Shown piece after piece: positions 35,033-43,018 of a stretch of 64,000 nucleotides of DNA (positions are counted from its first letter, which is position 1; every line of letters starts with the position of its first letter). The position numbers were made by a program, and so were the translations under genes. The notes under the pieces were generated by a model, which saw only the letters and a list, made by a program, of their open reading frames with translations, ran no database searches and was not told the origin of the DNA. The stretch comes from Caenimonas soli (lineage in GTDB: Bacteria; Pseudomonadota; Gammaproteobacteria; Burkholderiales; Burkholderiaceae_C). Location: NCBI RefSeq assembly GCF_013155545.1, contig NZ_JABJVV010000001.1, forward strand, positions 620,001 through 684,000. The letters are read 5' to 3'.

Positions 35033-36085
35033 CTAGGGCAGGTTCTCCCGGAAGATCACCTGGCTTCTGACCTGCTCGACGCCGCTAGTCGGCTCGCGCC
35101 CATCGCGCAGGTTGGCGAAGATGCGCACGCAGTTCATCACGGCGCCCTGGGGGTTCTGGGTGATGACGGCGTCCATGGTGCCGTCGATCAGCAGCGCTCG
35201 CGTGTCCGGCGTCAGGCCATGCCCGATGAACACCGGCTTGCGCGAAGCGCCCACCTCCTTGATGGCGCGGCCAATCCCTGCGGCGCCGCCGCCGATGTTG
35301 TAGATGCCGGCCAGGTCGCCATGCTGCTCCAGCAGCGTGCGCGCCTGCCGGTAGTTCTTCTCTTCGTCGTCCTGCCCTTCGCGAGCGCCGACCACATGGA
35401 CCCCCGGGTACTGCTCTTCGAACAGATGCAGAAACCCGGCTTCGCGCTCTTCATGCGCCCGGTAGCTCAGCGAGCCGGCGATCATCGCCACCTTGGGATG
35501 GCGCCCGCGCGCGGCCGGTCCCATGAAGCGTGCGATCAGGTAGGCGGCCGTGCGCCCCGCCGCGCGATTGTCCAGGCCGACGTAGGCGGCGCGGCTGGAG
35601 TTGGACAGGTCGGAGATCAACGTCACGGTCGGCACGCCTTGCTCGGCCAACGACGCCACCGCTTCGCGGACCATCGGATGTTCCAGCGCCATGAAGGCGA
35701 TGCCGTCGCATTTCTTGCCATGCTTCAACAACTGGCGCGCCAGTGCCTCCGGATTGAAGCTCTCCACGTACTCTGCCTGGCAGCGCACGTTGAATGGCGC
35801 CCAGTGCTCGTGCGAGTAACCGATCAAGTCGCCCAGCATGCGCAGGAACCGGTTGGGGCCCTCGGGGATCAGGAAAGACAGCCGCAAGGGCTTGGGCGCC
35901 ATCGCGGCCCAGGCCTCGGCTTGCGCCACATAGCCCAGGTCCGCGGCGGCGCGCATCACGCGTTGCACGGTCGAAGCCCGCACGCCGGTGCGGCCGTGCA
36001 GAACCCGGTCCACGGTGGCCAGCGAGACCTCGGCTCGTTGCGCGACCTCTTCCATGCGGGGCAGACTCACCTCAAAACACCTCAT
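35033..36085 (-). CDS. LacI-family transcriptional regulator
   Basis: A 350-residue regulator with LacI HTH MEEVAQRAEVSLATVDRVLH then GRTGVRASTVQRVMRAAADL (hinge), and a periplasmic-binding-like ligand domain (LRLSFLIPEGPNRFLRML; HPKVAMIAGSLSYRAHEERE). The ligand domain is of the ribose-binding type. Possible starts are ATG 36085, an internal GTG and ATG 36055. It is divergent from the TRAP/RuBisCO-like operon and most likely controls it in response to the sugar acid taken up. Confidence 0.93.
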   Translation of the reverse strand: MRCFEVSLPRMEEVAQRAEVSLATVDRVLHGRTGVRASTVQRVMRAAADLGYVAQAEAWAAMAPKPLRLSFLIPEGPNRFLRMLGDLIGYSHEHWAPFNVRCQAEYVESFNPEALARQLLKHGKKCDGIAFMALEHPMVREAVASLAEQGVPTVTLISDLSNSSRAAYVGLDNRAAGRTAAYLIARFMGPAARGRHPKVAMIAGSLSYRAHEEREAGFLHLFEEQYPGVHVVGAREGQDDEEKNYRQARTLLEQHGDLAGIYNIGGGAAGIGRAIKEVGASRKPVFIGHGLTPDTRALLIDGTMDAVITQNPQGAVMNCVRIFANLRDGREPTSGVEQVRSQVIFRENLP

Positions 36086-36094
36086 TCAGCCGGT

Positions 36095-36130
36095 TTGACG
36101 ATGCGGCCATGCCTGCCTACTCTATCGTCA
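36095..36130 (+). promoter_or_regulatory. candidate promoter of the TRAP/RuBisCO-like operon with flanking inverted repeat
   Basis: TTGACG (36095-36100) is followed after 17 bp by TACTCT (36118-36123), a sigma70-like pair. TGACGAT (36096-36102) and ATCGTCA (36124-36130) are perfect inverted repeats that embrace the -10 region with a 21-bp spacer. A LacI-type protein could bind both half-sites. Supported only by pattern. Confidence 0.4.
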
Positions 36131-36200
36131 TCCGAGGGCAGAGACAATCGCCCCAACATCAGAAACCCTCAGAAGCCGTCAGATCAACAGGAGACAATGC

Positions 36201-37232
36201 ATGCCCTCGAACCTCACGCAACCTTCGCGCCGCACGGTGCTGCGCCAACTGGGCGCCCTGCCTGCCGCCGGCATCGCCGCCGCGCTGCCCCGCTTTGCCC
36301 ACGCGGCCGAGTACTCGCTGAAGTACGGCAACAACCTGCCGGTGAGCCATCCGCTGAACGTACGCGCCCAGGAAGCGGCGGACCGCATCGCCAAGGAAAG
36401 CAAGGGCCGCGTCGAGATCAAGATATTCCCCAACAACCAGCTGGGCGGCGACACCGACATGCTGGCCCAGGTGCGATCCGGCGGCATTGACTTCTTCACG
36501 CCCTCCGCGCTGGTAATCGCCACGTTGGTGCCGGTGGCCGCGATCAACGCCACGGGCTTCGCCTTCGCCGACTACAACCAGGTCTGGTCGGCGATGGACG
36601 GCAAGGTGGGCGCCCATGTGCGGGCCGCCATCGGCAAGATGCGGCTGCATGCCTTCGAGAAGATGTGGGACAACGGCTTCCGGCAGATGACCAGCAGCAA
36701 GTCGCCGATCACCGCGGCCAAGGACATGGACGGCCTGAAGATCCGCGTGCCGGTCAGCCCCTTGTCCATCAGCATGTTCAAGGGCCTGGGCGCCTCGCCC
36801 ACCAGCCTGCAGTTCAGCGAGGTGTATTCCGCGCTCCAGACCAAGATCGTCGATGCGCAGGAGAACCCGCTGCCCATCATCCAGGTCGCCAAGCTGTTCG
36901 AGGTGCAGAAGCACTGCTCGCTGTCCAACCACATCTGGGACGGCTTCTGGTTCATCGCCAACGGCCGCACCTGGGAAGGCCTGCCGGCCGACCTGAAGAC
37001 CATCGTCTCCAGCGCCATCAACGACGCCGGCGTCAAGCAGCGCGAAGACATCAAGAAGCTCAACGAAACCCTGCAGGCCGACCTGGCGGCCAAGGGTCTG
37101 GTGTTCAACAAGACCAATCCCGACAGCTTCCGCGCCAAGCTGCGCGAAGCCGGCTTCTATGCCGAATGGAAGGGCCGCTTCGGCGACGAGGCCTGGGGCC
37201 TGCTGGAGCAATCCGTCGGCAAGCTCGCCTGA
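36201..37232 (+). CDS. TRAP transporter substrate-binding protein (DctP type)
   Basis: A 343-residue periplasmic receptor. The twin-arginine leader PSRRTVLRQLGALPAAGIAA suggests Tat export, cleaved after AHA. The mature part shows the DctP pattern: LKYGNNLPVSHPLNVRAQEA, GRVEIKIFPNNQLGGDTDML, the conserved Arg in DGLKIRVPVSPL that salt-bridges a ligand carboxylate, and VYSALQTKIVDAQENPLPII. It starts an operon with the fused permease and the RuBisCO-like enzyme genes. The ligand is therefore probably a sugar acid. Confidence 0.93.
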   Translation: MPSNLTQPSRRTVLRQLGALPAAGIAAALPRFAHAAEYSLKYGNNLPVSHPLNVRAQEAADRIAKESKGRVEIKIFPNNQLGGDTDMLAQVRSGGIDFFTPSALVIATLVPVAAINATGFAFADYNQVWSAMDGKVGAHVRAAIGKMRLHAFEKMWDNGFRQMTSSKSPITAAKDMDGLKIRVPVSPLSISMFKGLGASPTSLQFSEVYSALQTKIVDAQENPLPIIQVAKLFEVQKHCSLSNHIWDGFWFIANGRTWEGLPADLKTIVSSAINDAGVKQREDIKKLNETLQADLAAKGLVFNKTNPDSFRAKLREAGFYAEWKGRFGDEAWGLLEQSVGKLA

Positions 37233-37248
37233 CAACGCCCGGTCCTTC

Positions 37249-39138
37249 ATGACGCACTCCCTCACGCCAGACGCGGCGGAAGCCCTCGCGCCGCCGCACA
37301 ATCCCCTCAGCGCCGCGGCCCGGCGCGTCGACAGCGGCCTGGGCGCCACGGTCGAAGCGGCCGCCGCCGGCCTGGTGCTGGTGGAAATATTCGTGCTGTT
37401 GGCGGGCGTCATCACGCGCTACGTGTTCCACAAGCCGCTGGTGTGGTCGGACGAGCTGGCCTCTGTGCTGTTCCTCTGGCTCTCGATGCTGGGCGCCGTG
37501 GTCGCGCTGCGCCGCGGCGAGCACATGCGCATGACCGGCCTGGTCAATCGCGTCAAGCCGCGAACGGCGGCCTTGCTCGAAGCATTGGCGCTCACGATTC
37601 CGCTGGCCTTCCTGGCCCTCGTGATGTGGCCGGCTTTCGAATACGCCTACGAAGAGATGCCGGTCGTGAGTCCGGCCATGGAGCTCAGCAATGCCTGGCG
37701 GGCCAGTGCCATTCCGGTCGGCCTGGGGTTGATGGCGGTGGTGGCATTGCTGCGCCTGTTCCGCTTCCATGAGCTGCGGCATATCGGGATCGCCCTGGCG
37801 GCAACGGCGGCGGTCTGCCTGCTGTTCTGGGTGGCCGGCCCGGTACTGGCACCGCTGGGCAAGCTCAATCTCATCATCTTTTTCGTGGTGATCGTCGGCG
37901 CCTGCGTGTTCGCCGGCGTGCCCATCGCGTTCTCCTTCGCGCTGGCGACCTTCGCCTACCTGGCGCTCACGACCCGCACGCCGATGCTGGTGATGGTGGG
38001 GCGGCTGGACGAGGGCATGTCGCACCTGATCCTGCTGGCGGTGCCGCTCTTCATCTTTCTGGGCGCGCTGATCGAAATGACGGGGATGGCCCGCGCCATG
38101 ATCCAGTTCCTGGCGAGCCTGCTGGGGCACGTGAAGGGCGGTTTGTCGTACGTGCTGATCGGCGCCATGTACTTGGTGTCGGGCATCTCGGGCTCCAAGA
38201 TCGCCGACATGGCCGCCATCGCGCCGGTGCTCTTCCCCGAGATGAGGAAACGCGGCGCCAAGCCCGGCGACCTGGTTGCGCTGCTGTCCGCCACGGGCGC
38301 CCAGACCGAAACCATCCCGCCTTCGATCGTGCTGATCACGATCGGCTCGGTCACCGGCGTTTCGATCGCCGCGCTGTTCACCGGCGGCCTGCTGCCCGCC
38401 GTGGTGGTGGGCGCATGCCTGTGCGCTGTGGTGTGGTGGCGCTACCGCCGCGAGGACCTGTCGCAGGTGCGGCGCTATGGCAAGCGCGAGATCGGCCGCT
38501 TCCTGCTGGTGGCGCTGCCGGCGATTGCCCTTCCCTTCGTCATCCGCGCCGCCGTGGTGGAAGGCGTGGCCACCGCCACTGAAGTCTCCACCATCGGCAT
38601 CGTGTATGCGGTGGCTGTGGGCGTCTTCATCCATCGCCAGTTCGATCTGAAGCGCATCAAGCCCATGCTGGTGGAAACGGCCTCGCTCACCGGCGCCATC
38701 ATCTTCATCGTGGGTTGCGCCACGGCCATGGCCTGGGGCCTGACCCAGTCGGGCTTCTCGCAGGATCTGGCCAGCATCATGCAGAAGATGCCGGGCGGCG
38801 CGATCGGTTTCATGGCGATCTCCATCGTGGCCTTCGTGATCCTGGGCAGCGTGCTCGAGGGCATTCCGGCCATCGTGCTGTTCGGGCCGCTGCTGTTCCC
38901 GATCGCCAAGGCCGTCGGCATCCATGAGGTGCACTACGCCATGGTGGTGATTTTCGCGATGGGCATCGGCCTGTTCGCGCCACCCTTCGGCGTCGGCTAC
39001 TACGGCGCCTGTGCCATCAGCAAGATCCACCCCGACGAAGGCCTGCCGCACATCGGCGGCTACATCCTGGCCCTGCTGGCCGGCCTGGTCGTCGTCGCCG
39101 CGATCCCGTGGATCTCCATCGGCTTCCTGAAGACTTGA
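37249..39138 (+). CDS. TRAP transporter fused permease (DctQM)
   Basis: A 629-residue membrane protein. Residues about 30-180 form the small DctQ subunit (four helices; AGVITRYVFHKPLVWSDELA motif), and from about 210 onward the large DctM subunit: GVPIAFSFALATFAYLALTT, PLFIFLGALIEMTGMARAMI, and the signatures GSKIADMAAIAPVLFPEM and GAQTETIPPSIVLITIGSV. The subunits are encoded as one protein. Only 16 bp separate it from the receptor gene and 11 bp from the VOC gene. Confidence 0.93.
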   Translation: MTHSLTPDAAEALAPPHNPLSAAARRVDSGLGATVEAAAAGLVLVEIFVLLAGVITRYVFHKPLVWSDELASVLFLWLSMLGAVVALRRGEHMRMTGLVNRVKPRTAALLEALALTIPLAFLALVMWPAFEYAYEEMPVVSPAMELSNAWRASAIPVGLGLMAVVALLRLFRFHELRHIGIALAATAAVCLLFWVAGPVLAPLGKLNLIIFFVVIVGACVFAGVPIAFSFALATFAYLALTTRTPMLVMVGRLDEGMSHLILLAVPLFIFLGALIEMTGMARAMIQFLASLLGHVKGGLSYVLIGAMYLVSGISGSKIADMAAIAPVLFPEMRKRGAKPGDLVALLSATGAQTETIPPSIVLITIGSVTGVSIAALFTGGLLPAVVVGACLCAVVWWRYRREDLSQVRRYGKREIGRFLLVALPAIALPFVIRAAVVEGVATATEVSTIGIVYAVAVGVFIHRQFDLKRIKPMLVETASLTGAIIFIVGCATAMAWGLTQSGFSQDLASIMQKMPGGAIGFMAISIVAFVILGSVLEGIPAIVLFGPLLFPIAKAVGIHEVHYAMVVIFAMGIGLFAPPFGVGYYGACAISKIHPDEGLPHIGGYILALLAGLVVVAAIPWISIGFLKT

Positions 39139-39149
39139 GGTATTGATCA

Positions 39150-39704
39150 ATGAGCAGATTTTTTGGCGAGATTCGCCAGGTGGCCTACCTCGTGCCCGAC
39201 ATCGAGGCCGCCATGGACTACTGGGCCAATGTCCTGGGCGTGGGCCCCTGGTTCTACAACCCGCGCGTTCCCATTCGCAACTACACCTACCGCGGCGAAC
39301 GCTACGAGCCCCACAACTCGGTGGCGCTGGCCAACGCCGGTGGATTGCAGGTGGAACTGCTGCAAGTGCGCAACGACGTGCCCTCGATGTACCGCGACTT
39401 CATCCGTGCCGGCCACCAGGGCGCGCAGCACTTCGCCTACTGGACCGAAAGCTTCGATGCCGACCTGGCGCGCGCGCAAGCGCAAGGCTTCAAGGTCTGC
39501 ATGGGCGGCGAAGTCGGCGAGAACGGCCGTTTCGTGTATTTCGAGGACCAGAGCTCCCACCCCGGGCTGCACCCCGGCACGGTGGTCGAGCTGTCCGAAG
39601 TGGCGGGTCCCAAGGGCAAGCTCTTCAAGCTGATCCGCGAGGCCGCGCAAGACTGGGACGGACGCGACCCCGTGCGGCCGTTTCCCGACTTGAACACGCT
39701 GTAG
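39150..39704 (+). CDS. VOC-family (glyoxalase/dioxygenase fold) protein
   Basis: A 184-residue vicinal-oxygen-chelate protein. The first strand QVAYLVPDIEAAMDYWANVL supplies a Gln in the place of the usual metal His; later ligands are His in AGHQGAQHFAYW and Glu in HPGTVVELSE. It may act as an isomerase, epimerase or lyase. In this operon it stands where an oxidoisomerase would be expected in apionate-type pathways, so it could be the missing step or an accessory enzyme. No direct evidence of its reaction. Confidence 0.85.
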   Translation: MSRFFGEIRQVAYLVPDIEAAMDYWANVLGVGPWFYNPRVPIRNYTYRGERYEPHNSVALANAGGLQVELLQVRNDVPSMYRDFIRAGHQGAQHFAYWTESFDADLARAQAQGFKVCMGGEVGENGRFVYFEDQSSHPGLHPGTVVELSEVAGPKGKLFKLIREAAQDWDGRDPVRPFPDLNTL

Positions 39705-39707
39705 CCC

Positions 39708-40985
39708 ATGCCCAGTGATCGCTTCACGGCAAGCTACCTGATCGAGACACCGCTGGACCCTGCCCACGTGGCAGAGGTGCTGGCCGGCGAGCAGTCCTGC
39801 GGCACCTTCGCACGCGTCGAGGGGGAATCCGATGCGCTGCGCGAGCGGGCGCGCGCCAATGTCGAATCCGTCGAGCTGCTGGATGTGGCCGATGGCCCCA
39901 GCCTGCCCAATGGCTGGATGCAGCGGCGCGGCATGTTGCAGCAACCGCAGACCTGGCGGCGGGCCCGGCTGCGGGTGAGTTTTCCGGTGAGCAACGTCGG
40001 CGCCAACCTGCCCACGCTGGCCGCCACCGTGTCCGGCAACCTGTTCGACCTGGGCGAAGTGACAGGCCTGCGGCTGGAGTCGCTGCAGCTGCCCGCCGCC
40101 TATCGAAAGCAATTCGACCTGCCCGCGCAGGGCATCGCCGGCACGCGCGAACTGACAGGCGTGCGCGGCCGGCCCCTGATCGGGACCATCATCAAGCCCA
40201 ACGTGGGCCTCTCCGCCGAGGAGACGGGCGAGCTGGCCGGGCGGCTGTGCGCGGCCGGCGTGGACTTCATCAAGGACGACGAAGTCTGCGCCAATCCGGC
40301 GCACGCACCCCTGCAGGAGCGCGTGAAATCGGTGATGCGGCGGGTGCGCGCCCACCGCGACAAGACCGGCAAGCAGGTGATGGTGGCCTTCAACATCACC
40401 GACGAAACCGATGCCATGCGAAGGCATGCGGACCTGGTGGCGCAGGAAGGCGGCACCTGCGTCATGGCCAGCCTCAACTGGTGCGGCTACTCGGCGATCC
40501 AAACGCTGCGCCGCCACACATCGCTGGCCCTGCACGGGCACCGCAACGGCTATGGCGCGCTCTCGCGCCACCCGTTGCTGGGTTTCTCGTTCCAGGCCTG
40601 GCAGGCGCTGTGGCGCCTGGCCGGCGTGGACCACATGCACGTGCACGGCCTGCAGGGCAAGTTTTCGCAGACGGACGACGAAGTGATCGAGTCGGCCCGG
40701 GACACCTTGCGCCCGCTGGCCGATGGCGTGGACGATCGCGTGCTGCCGGCCTTTTCGAACGGGCAGTGGGCGGGCACCGTGCAAGCCACCTGGGACAGCG
40801 TGCGCAGCAACGACCTGCTGTTCATGTCCGGCGGCGGCATCCTGGCTCACCCGGATGGGCCCGCGGCCGGCGTGGCCAGCCTGCAGCAGGCCTGGGACGC
40901 GGCGCAGCAAGGCGAACCGCTGGCGCAACGCGCCCTGCGCTCACCCGAACTGCGAAACGCCATCGCGTTTTTCGGCAAGACCTGA
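39708..40985 (+). CDS. RuBisCO-like protein (form IV), probable 3-oxo-acid-sugar-phosphate decarboxylase or hydrolase
   Basis: A 425-residue RuBisCO large-chain homologue without a small subunit gene. The metal/carbamate motif GVDFIKDDE is intact (K189, D191, E192 matching K201, D203, E204 of spinach). Catalytic Lys is kept in GTIIKPNVGLS (K163), and His in ALHGHRNG. Loop-6 Lys is kept in HGLQGKF (K318), as is the phosphate site SGGGILAHP (S374-G377). The KPK of true RuBisCO is KPN, so it is not a CO2-fixing enzyme. Paired with a DUF1537 kinase it resembles the enzymes acting on 3-oxo-isoapionate 4-phosphate. It overlaps the kinase gene by one base. Confidence 0.9.
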   Translation: MPSDRFTASYLIETPLDPAHVAEVLAGEQSCGTFARVEGESDALRERARANVESVELLDVADGPSLPNGWMQRRGMLQQPQTWRRARLRVSFPVSNVGANLPTLAATVSGNLFDLGEVTGLRLESLQLPAAYRKQFDLPAQGIAGTRELTGVRGRPLIGTIIKPNVGLSAEETGELAGRLCAAGVDFIKDDEVCANPAHAPLQERVKSVMRRVRAHRDKTGKQVMVAFNITDETDAMRRHADLVAQEGGTCVMASLNWCGYSAIQTLRRHTSLALHGHRNGYGALSRHPLLGFSFQAWQALWRLAGVDHMHVHGLQGKFSQTDDEVIESARDTLRPLADGVDDRVLPAFSNGQWAGTVQATWDSVRSNDLLFMSGGGILAHPDGPAAGVASLQQAWDAAQQGEPLAQRALRSPELRNAIAFFGKT

Positions 40986-42391
40986 TGTCCGCTCCCCTGC
41001 TCGGCTGGTACGGCGACGATTTCACCGGCGCCACGGACACGCTGGCGGTACTCACCCAGGCCGGCCTGCGGGCCATGCTGTTCATGGGCGTGCCCGGTGG
41101 AGCGCAGCAGGCCGCGGCGGCACATGCGCTGGGCGGGCCGCTCCATGCCGTGGGCATCGCAGGCGCATCCCGCTCGATGGCGCCGGCGGCCATGGAGGCC
41201 GAGCTGGAGCCGGCTGGTGCGTTCTTCGCCGCGTTGGGCAGCCGTGTCCTGCACTACAAGGTGTGCTCCACTTTCGACAGCGCCCCGGAAGTCGGCAGCA
41301 TCGGCGTGGCCGTGCGCGTGTTGCGCCGCCATGTGCGCAACGCCTTTGTCCCCGTCGTCGGCGGGCAGCCGAACCTGGGCCGCTATTGCGCGTTCAGCAA
41401 CCTGTTCGCGGCCGCCGGCAGCGGCGCAGCCGTGGAGCGCATCGACCGGCACCCCACCATGCGCAATCACCCGATGACGCCCATGAAAGAGGCCGACCTG
41501 CGGCGCCACCTGGCACTGCAAGGCCTGCAGCCGGTGGCCGGGCTGCACTATCCGGTGTACGCCGAGAACCAGGACGCGCAGCAAGGCGTGCTGCGACGCC
41601 TGCTGGATGGAGCCGCCGCCGTGCTGCTCGACGTCACCGAACCGGCGCAGCTCGCGGCGATAGGAAATTTGATCTGGCAGCAGGCGCAGCAAAGCCCGCT
41701 GCTGGCCGTGGGGCCTAGCGGTGTGGCGCAGGCACTGATCGCGCACTGGCAGGAAAGCGGGCAGATGCCCGCGCCCGAGCAGTGCGCCCCAAGGGATGGC
41801 CAAGGCCTGCAGCCGGCCAAGAGCCCGGTCTTTGTCTTCGCCGGCAGCCTCTCGCCCATCACAGCCAGGCAGGTGCGGGCCGCGAAGTCATTCCAGCAGG
41901 TCGCGCTGGATGCCGGCGAGTTGCTGGATTCGCCGGGTTATGCGGCCAAGGTGCAAGCCGAGATCAGCCGGCATCTGCTGGCGGGCCGGCATGTGCTGGC
42001 CTACACCGCATCGGCCAATGGCAATCCCCCCGACACCAGCAAGTCGGCTGCGCTGGCGCGGGCCACCGCGCGCTGCGTCAAGGCCATCGTCGATGGCCAG
42101 GCCGTGCGCGGCGCACCGCTGCGGCGCATGGGCATCGCCGGTGGCGACACTTCCAGCCTGGCCGTCAAGGCCTTGGGCGTTTGGGGCCTGTCCTATCGCG
42201 CTGCGCTCGGCGCCGGCGTATGCGTCAGCGTGACCCATAGCGACGACCCGGCGCTCGATGGCATGGAATTGATGCTCAAGGGCGGGCAGATGGGCAGCGA
42301 GGACGTGTTCGAAAGGCTGCTTGGAGATCCCTTACCCCCGCACGGCCATCCTCGTCGGTGCGAACATACTCCGTCCCAGCCAGCGCCATAA
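40985..42391 (+). CDS. DUF1537 four-carbon acid-sugar kinase family protein (OiaK-like)
   Basis: A 468-residue ATP-dependent acid-sugar kinase. The N-terminal LGWYGDDFTGATDTLAVLTQ is the family signature, and NGNPPDTSKSAAL plus GIAGGDTSSLAVKALGVWGL form the C-terminal nucleotide/substrate site. Members phosphorylate threonate, erythronate, or 3-oxo-isoapionate. Start at 40985 overlaps the RuBisCO-like stop (TGATG). The tail beyond GSEDVFERLL (about 22 residues, Pro/His-rich) is atypical and runs antisense into the convergent HxlR gene, so the native 3' end may have been lost. Confidence 0.9.
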   Translation: MSAPLLGWYGDDFTGATDTLAVLTQAGLRAMLFMGVPGGAQQAAAAHALGGPLHAVGIAGASRSMAPAAMEAELEPAGAFFAALGSRVLHYKVCSTFDSAPEVGSIGVAVRVLRRHVRNAFVPVVGGQPNLGRYCAFSNLFAAAGSGAAVERIDRHPTMRNHPMTPMKEADLRRHLALQGLQPVAGLHYPVYAENQDAQQGVLRRLLDGAAAVLLDVTEPAQLAAIGNLIWQQAQQSPLLAVGPSGVAQALIAHWQESGQMPAPEQCAPRDGQGLQPAKSPVFVFAGSLSPITARQVRAAKSFQQVALDAGELLDSPGYAAKVQAEISRHLLAGRHVLAYTASANGNPPDTSKSAALARATARCVKAIVDGQAVRGAPLRRMGIAGGDTSSLAVKALGVWGLSYRAALGAGVCVSVTHSDDPALDGMELMLKGGQMGSEDVFERLLGDPLPPHGHPRRCEHTPSQPAP

Positions 42392-43018
42392 GAGTTGCCC
42401 CGCCCGGCCGGCTCCCTGCACGACCAGCTCGCCGCCTCTAATCTCATCCGCTGGATCGCTGTCGCCGGTCCAGACCTCGGTCAAGGCGCGCACGGTCGAC
42501 TCGACGATCACCGTCAAGTCGTGGCCGGGGTCATCGCGGCACAGATCGGCGGTACGGTCTTGCACCACCAGCCACCACAGACGCTCTGCCGCGGGCCCGT
42601 CGCGGAAACGGAAATGCACCACGGTCCGCCGGCTGGCGGGGAATTCGTCAACGAGCGCGAAACGGCGGATGTCCCACATCAGGAAGCCGGCATCGAGCTG
42701 CTCGCGCCGCAGGCGACTGCCGATCCAGCGGGCGCCCCAGTGACCAAGGGCCACCACGATCGGCCGCAATTCCTCGCCTGCGGCCGTGAGGTGGTATTCC
42801 CAAGTTTTATCGGCCCGGCGCCGTTCCAGCACACCAATCGCCTCGAGCTTGCGCAGCCGCTGGCTCAGCAGAGTGGCCGACATGCGCGGCACGCCGCGGT
42901 GGATGTCGTTGAACCGGCAACTGCCGCAGAGCAACTCGCGCACCACCAGCGGCGTCCACACCTCACCGAGCACCTCGGCGCCGCGGGCCACCGTGCAGAA
43001 CTGCATGTAGTCGATCAT
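42332..43018 (-). CDS. HxlR-family transcriptional regulator
   Basis: A 228-residue regulator. HxlR wHTH: MIDYMQFCTVARGAEVLGEV, WTPLVVRELLCGSCRFNDIH and PRMSATLLSQRLRKLEAIGV. The C-terminal 110 residues form an extra domain (SCP2/sterol-carrier-like pattern with RFRDGPAAERLWWLVVQD). Divergent from a methyltransferase with a perfect palindrome between. Its 3' end overlaps the kinase by 60 bp. Confidence 0.9.
   Translation of the reverse strand: MIDYMQFCTVARGAEVLGEVWTPLVVRELLCGSCRFNDIHRGVPRMSATLLSQRLRKLEAIGVLERRRADKTWEYHLTAAGEELRPIVVALGHWGARWIGSRLRREQLDAGFLMWDIRRFALVDEFPASRRTVVHFRFRDGPAAERLWWLVVQDRTADLCRDDPGHDLTVIVESTVRALTEVWTGDSDPADEIRGGELVVQGAGRAGQLLWRWLGRSMFAPTRMAVRG

Follow-up and report, generated by a model that had tools for sequence, protein, structure and literature searches.

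The window analyzed here, a stretch of 64,000 nucleotides from the 5.6-Mb genome of Caenimonas soli (C1:620001-684000), carries an operon coding for a TRAP importer, a protein of the VOC superfamily, a RuBisCO-like protein (RLP) and a DUF1537 acid-sugar kinase, with the gene for a LacI-family regulator lying divergently next to it (Table 1). This arrangement, previously proposed from the letters of the DNA and their open reading frames (the sequence-only reading), is real and was borne out by gene calls and Pfam matches. The cassette is almost certainly a distinct conserved module, and it is found in many Beta- and Alphaproteobacteria, plasmids included. We found no paper on this gene set in the open-access literature.

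With a probability of roughly one half, we propose that the cassette takes an imported acid through isomerization by the VOC protein, phosphorylation by the kinase and a carboxylase-type cleavage by the RLP. The TRAP system, evident from its gene families, would import an acid sugar. The VOC protein, as a metal-dependent isomerase of the enolate/enediol type, would turn the imported acid, or in some cassettes the product of an added dehydrogenase, into a 3-oxo acid, for which 3-oxo-isoapionate or a near analogue is the likeliest candidate; the VOC protein would thereby stand at the place of ApnO in the apionate pathway. The DUF1537 kinase, judging by its family, would phosphorylate this 3-oxo acid. 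The RLP would then perform RuBisCO-type chemistry: loss of CO2 would leave an enediolate, which would be carboxylated again at the other carbon, hydrated and split at a C-C bond, probably yielding 3-phosphoglycerate and glycolate rather than the product of a simple decarboxylation. This last step is suggested by the residues that the RLP retains and by the lack of genes for tetrulose-phosphate isomerases near the cassettes. The LacI protein presumably keeps the operon silent in the absence of the ligand.

The comparison that frames this proposal is the D-apionate route, which Carter et al. 2018 reportedly described with ApnO, OiaK and either OiaX or a transcarboxylase/hydrolase of Xanthobacter; the latter is said to give 3-phosphoglycerate and glycolate by the order of steps outlined above. 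The window cassette resembles the D-apionate/3-oxo-isoapionate route in its kinase gene adjoining an RLP gene, its acid importer and the shared fold families, but differs in having a VOC protein for ApnO, separate RLP and kinase clades, a LacI regulator and a different importer. A more specific version of our proposal is tentative and on the doubtful side: the VOC protein might take the place of ApnO as a redox-free ketol-acid (hydroxymethyl-shift) isomerase and feed a widespread RLP clade of unassigned function, which retains an almost complete RuBisCO active site and would carboxylate and cleave C-C bonds in catabolism, with cassettes that contain a short-chain dehydrogenase/reductase (SDR) splitting the two half-reactions of ApnO between the SDR and the VOC protein. 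More broadly, the cassette points to the VOC protein as a third type of entry, beside ApnO and the SDR, into the RLP and DUF1537 kinase route in Beta- and Alphaproteobacteria.

A profile built from 17 RLPs of the window clade and scanned over the genome collection confirmed at least 576 stretches, more distant relatives included. The best 80 of these, retrieved by their RLP rather than by their VOC protein and searched for up to 10 kb on each side, all have a VOC gene upstream of the RLP gene. The kinase gene follows the RLP gene in 79 (the remaining locus ends with its contig) and a LacI gene is present in 77 (the other three lie on short contigs). The importer varies more: 65 loci code for a DctP more than 50% identical to that of the window, 12 have an ABC importer of the polar-amino-acid type in place of TRAP (L055-L058, L071, L074, L082, L084, L088, L092, L094 and L121; recognized by similarity to the L071 importer, the receptor being Pfam-confirmed in L071 and L055), and the last three comprise two cut contigs and one different TRAP. 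Four loci have an SDR gene between LacI and DctP, and none of the 80 has, within the stretch searched, an ApnO-type gene (PF16896) accompanying the RLP/kinase pair. The order LacI, importer, VOC, RLP, kinase recurs in all nine plasmid loci read, taken from the 18 best window-clade plasmid matches, and the same core order in all seven congeneric loci, two of which are also within the 80 (L054 = L036, L059 = L039). Another TRAP type is present in four of these plasmid loci (L032, L034, L035 and L050) and two congeneric ones (L041 and L042), and an SDR gene in one plasmid locus (L033). The exchange of TRAP for an ABC importer offers a clue to the ligand of the cassette.

The genome codes for two RLPs (PF00016), three DUF1537 kinases (PF07005) and one ApnO-type protein. 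We take PF16896 genes to code for ApnO, as their position in OiaX/OiaK loci suggests. The second RLP cluster, on contig C45 (L003; G000:C45:262000-281000), shares with the window cassette an RLP, a DUF1537 kinase and a TRAP importer but differs in possessing the ApnO-type gene, an aldehyde dehydrogenase gene, a GntR-type (NanR-like) regulator gene and an isopropylmalate/tartrate-dehydrogenase-like gene, and in having no VOC gene of the window type; it further includes genes for a 2-hydroxyacid dehydrogenase and a 3-hydroxyisobutyrate-dehydrogenase-like protein. Its kinase passes the cutoff of the OiaK equivalog model (736.8 versus 700 bits), and its RLP lies below the OiaX cutoff (434.8 bits) and by elimination would be of the transcarboxylase/hydrolase type. 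The window RLP (RLP1) and the C45 RLP (RLP2) are 50% identical and the two kinases 38%.

This second pair is central to the reading of four hybrid cassettes (in G330, G820, G823 and G834), which join a window-type backbone (LacI 63-64%, DctP 76-79%, DctQM 73-78% and VOC 71-72% identical to the window proteins) to an RLP2-like RLP/kinase pair. Their RLPs show 64-65% identity with RLP2 and 54-55% with RLP1, and their kinases 49-52% with the C45 kinase versus 37-38% with that of the window (one comparison giving 50% over 442 columns); the kinase of G330 scores 541 bits against the OiaK model, below the cutoff. The trees agree with these values. The four hybrid RLPs group with the C45 RLP in a set of 14 rows (98/90), and the four kinases fall on the 23-row OiaK side together with the C45 kinase (100/100), from which the clade of the window kinase is separate; the VOC proteins of three hybrids lie among the cassette VOC proteins (99/97). 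The kinase tree was thinned to 85 rows and the VOC tree to 52, with the fourth hybrid VOC (L228, in G834) omitted since its gene contains a stop. All four hybrid genomes lack a PF16896 gene genome-wide. An RLP/kinase pair of a type that is often found with ApnO elsewhere thus occurs here with the TRAP importer and the VOC protein, and the hybrids amount to a natural swap experiment, with two RLP/kinase types placed behind one importer and one VOC.

The VOC protein displays the VOC fold with intact metal-site residues; the presumed ligands are Q10, E69, H94 and E147, a set that matches the metal ligands of glyoxalase I. The fold, which matches epimerase and glyoxalase I structures, is common to methylmalonyl-CoA epimerase and glyoxalase I, from which the window protein differs by its acid-sugar setting. 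As a methylmalonyl-CoA epimerase it was rejected, scoring 25.1 bits against a cutoff of 115 (TIGR03081). It is the only match of its type in its own genome. When a phylum sample of 398 genomes was searched starting from the VOC protein (E 0.001; 37 genomes match), an RLP gene was found adjoining the VOC gene in all eight genomes with a VOC of at least 62% identity, the present genome included, and no RLP gene within 1.5 kb in any of 22 loci examined among the 29 weaker matches. Six relatives at 45-53% identity, inspected by eye, have mixed neighbors such as a P450, a TctC-type receptor and an SDR. A family sample of 341 genomes searched at E 1e-65 (G330 belonging to both samples) gave 19 VOC matches, 11 with a window-type RLP, four in the hybrids and four without an RLP. 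In three of the last (G554, G513 and G538), the VOC protein (59-61%) and a related TRAP (DctP 61-63%) are joined by an OiaK-side DUF1537 kinase, 42-44% identical to the C45 kinase, and all three have a PdxA-type gene, a DeoR regulator and a DeoC/LacD-type aldolase (77-85% mutual identity; Pfam bears out the family assignments in L224 and L225). The fourth, G594, has LacI, DctP and VOC genes with neither RLP nor kinase. The VOC protein thus tracks the importer, and usually the kinase, across loci with different final steps, and this places it near the start of the pathway. The three kinase-bearing loci (L223, L224 and L225) might represent an RLP-free version of the route.

This pattern bears on a different placement of the VOC protein, by which the kinase accepts the acid as it is imported and the VOC protein acts after the RLP or the kinase, or as a glyoxalase-like detoxifier of a reactive dicarbonyl side product. 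The fold matches and the residue set named above would suit such a role, as would the 76 of 80 loci that have no cassette-type SDR, but we regard it as unlikely: the VOC gene persists in the three genomes in which the RLP is gone while TRAP and the DUF1537 kinase remain, and it persists in the hybrids across the exchange of the RLP/kinase pair, which argues that it acts upstream of the RLP.

The RLP itself belongs to form IV, with 222 bits against PF00016 (cutoff 30.1) and scores below those of the models for carboxylating RuBisCOs (235 versus 497 bits for type III and 222 versus 438 for the large subunit). In a tree from which matches with stops or with fewer than 370 residues were removed, and in which 122 sequences were thinned to 90 (midpoint rooted for drawing), the comparison called for by the sequence-only reading places the window RLP outside the OiaX rows, in a clade of its own with 67 rows (100/100). 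This clade joins L051, L178 and L043 at 98/89; in these sister loci an SDR-type gene lies beside or near the pair (34, 31 and 34% identical to the cassette SDR), and L051 and L178 have the same TRAP type. The nearest solved chain is PDB 3nwr (E 7.3e-198 over residues 3-423), titled simply 'A rubisco-like protein'; it comes from Burkholderia fungorum and is not known to have an assigned function.

For the active site, five RuBisCOs from related genomes served as the reference for the 90 RLP rows, of which 7 were assigned to no group; residue numbers and roles follow spinach RuBisCO. The metal site (K189, D191 and E192 in the window protein), the loop-6 lysine K318 and the phosphate site (S350 and G375-G377) are the same in all 67 clade rows, in agreement with the earlier claim of an intact K-D-D-E site, loop-6 lysine and phosphate site. 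In RuBisCO numbering, every clade row keeps E60, T65, N123, K175, K201, D203, E204, H294, R295, H327, K334, S379, G403 and G404, with window position 311 equated with H327 by its place in the motif, and W66 is replaced by F and K177 by N. Four of these residues, E60, N123, H327 and S379, are also kept in all three sister and all ten RLP2-type rows; all three OiaX rows instead have D, G, Q and G or C, respectively, at these positions. The window RLP thus retains the residues that serve carboxylation, hydration and cleavage in RuBisCO, the set sought for a transcarboxylase/hydrolase of the Xanthobacter type and taken from RuBisCO rather than from the assayed enzyme. The active site of the clade is closer to that of true RuBisCO than is that of OiaX, and this makes the clade a good test of the residues that separate carboxylase-type from decarboxylase-type chemistry. 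These residues and the adjoining kinase, which matches both DUF1537 kinase domains (SBD_N 175 bits, NBD_C 88 bits), support the prediction, made already in the sequence-only reading, of a phosphorylated substrate for the RLP. The two characterized RLP reactions are reported in PMC6302742. The D-hamamelose RLP of Ochrobactrum anthropi ends a branched-sugar pathway linked to 3-phosphoglycerate and glycolate (Kim et al. 2018 via PMC8914248); the passage on it mentions no VOC protein, unlike the situation in the window cassette.

The same data speak to whether the RLP is a plain OiaX-like decarboxylase, giving a tetrulose phosphate that is handled by other enzymes of the cell. Such a role is improbable. 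Decarboxylation is the simplest chemistry for the fold, OiaX is the best NCBIfam model for the window RLP, and the isomerases could sit elsewhere, as two of the three OiaX loci read have none nearby; but the score of 408.4 bits is far under the cutoff of 700 (NF042437), and E60, N123, H327 and S379 separate the 67 clade rows from all three OiaX rows. Score and tree position together led us to reject the window RLP as OiaX, just as the window kinase was rejected as OiaK (297.2 bits against a cutoff of 700; NF042436). Further, triose-phosphate-isomerase-like and RpiB-like genes, which in one of the three OiaX loci are present for tetrulose phosphate, occur in none of 96 cassette loci (two counted twice). 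Direct entry of the RLP product into central metabolism is the simpler reading of this absence, which is weak evidence.

That the window lacks an oxidoisomerase gene, as the sequence-only reading stated, is correct, and the single PF16896 match of the genome lies on C45. The suggestion that the missing genes are elsewhere therefore holds to the extent that an ApnO-type gene is present on another contig, but the operon there has its own RLP and OiaK-passing kinase. As a general explanation it fails, given the 80 loci without an ApnO-type gene and a scan of 25 carriers of the RLP1 cassette in which 20 genomes lack PF16896 genome-wide (completeness of the negatives 80-100%; control genome G062 positive) and five have it (G000, G489, G410, G789 and G705). 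The counts from these carriers and the self-equipped C45 operon likewise exclude the cassette being an apionate operon with parts missing. A query presumed to be ApnL gave no match in the present genome, in a search that had no positive control. It is very unlikely that the cassette contributes an additional kinase and RLP to D-apionate degradation, relying on ApnO in trans: an ApnO-type gene is present here and in four of the 24 further carriers scanned, and in Cupriavidus a window-type TRAP receptor (53%) lies near such a gene, but the other 20 carriers have none, the C45 operon has its own pair, and the VOC protein would be left without a task. On this evidence, the missing oxidoisomerase is replaced rather than lost. 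The other suggestion of the sequence-only reading, that the VOC protein supplies a different entry step, gains support from its presence in all 80 loci, from the ApnO-less hybrids (one with a stop) and from the three RLP-less loci with a kinase.

Several observations weigh against the proposed import, isomerization, phosphorylation and cleavage sequence. The window clade has N165, H313 and A241 where all 13 sister and RLP2-type rows have S, N and H, and G317 where they have N or S; N165 occupies the K177 position, and H313 and G317 are near loop 6, so the substrate may differ from 3-oxo-isoapionate-4-phosphate. The assayed transcarboxylase sequence is not among the rows of the RLP tree. ABC importers of the polar-amino-acid type, as in the 12 loci above, are odd for a sugar acid, and the receptor of chain 4OAN (discussed below), with a 100% match in G606, adjoins a CoA ligase gene rather than an RLP gene. 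The fourth hybrid VOC gene has an in-frame stop, three VOC genes sit with PdxA, kinase and aldolase genes without an RLP, and that of G594 has neither RLP nor kinase beside it. A pyruvate kinase gene, which would fit 3-phosphoglycerate as the product, is found in none of the 96 cassette loci and an enolase gene in one. Finally, the isomerase genes that the cassettes lack are present in only one of three OiaX loci, which makes their absence a weak argument for the cleavage step. Elsewhere, pyruvate kinase or enolase genes occur in L051, L053, L176 and L178; none was seen in L052, L177 and L183 and none found in the C45 locus.

The receptor of the importer is closest among solved chains to 4OAN (E 1.2e-132, the runner-up having 9.8e-44; 58% identity over 236 aligned positions), which is RPB_2686 of Rhodopseudomonas palustris HaA2, and its predicted model is weak (predicted local distance difference test score, pLDDT, of 64). 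The density in 4OAN was reportedly modeled as acetolactate, the dideoxy skeleton of 3-oxo-isoapionate, which would suit the import of a ready kinase substrate; we treat this as an unconfirmed lead and not as evidence. No paper citing the code 4OAN was found in the open-access literature. Receptors of the 4OAN type match in 170 of the 341 family genomes at E 1e-60, and the C45 receptor has a different nearest solved chain, 4pdd. In L200 (G606:C1:3061000-3079000), the TRAP system with the 4OAN receptor lies beside an AMP-binding CoA ligase gene.

Within the operon, the VOC and RLP genes are separated by three bases, and the RLP stop and the kinase ATG share one base. The start of the fused DctQ-DctM gene was chosen by us at the ATG at 37249, the frame being open from 37159. 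Position 36095, at which the sequence-only reading had begun the feature, is intergenic. When the window was searched together with five congeneric loci (one counted twice) for a common LacI operator, no palindrome rose above the threshold, and some other cassette loci have weak palindromes that differ from one another; for sigma-70 promoters, none was found versus 0.4 expected.

Table 1. Genes of the RLP cassette in the window (window coordinates)
Gene product	Position	Strand	Domains and nearest structure
LacI-family regulator, divergent	35033..36085	-	PF00356 + PF13407 (Peripla_BP_4)
TRAP solute receptor DctP	36201..37232	+	PF03480; nearest solved chain 4OAN
Fused TRAP membrane protein DctQ-DctM	~37249..39138	+	PF04290 + PF06808
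VOC-superfamily metalloprotein, likely isomerase	39150..39704	+	Glyoxalase_4 (PF13669)
RuBisCO-like protein (RLP1), form IV	39708..40985	+	RuBisCO_large (PF00016); own clade; nearest solved chain 3nwr
DUF1537 acid-sugar kinase	40985..42391	+	SBD_N PF07005 + NBD_C PF17042

A gene for an HxlR-type regulator (42332-43018, - strand) overlaps the end of the kinase gene with its own end on the opposite strand. A match to the cassette-type SDR in the present genome (56%), on contig C2, has thiolase-like and TRAP genes as neighbors, as judged by eye, and is probably unrelated to the cassette. Two further RLP/kinase clusters have other company: L053, on a Haloterrigena plasmid, is a haloarchaeal cluster with genes for an ApnO-type protein, an SDR, pyruvate kinase and enolase, and in L183, on a Croceibacterium plasmid, the pair is part of a gene cluster for polysaccharide degradation that includes an arabinofuranosidase-type gene.

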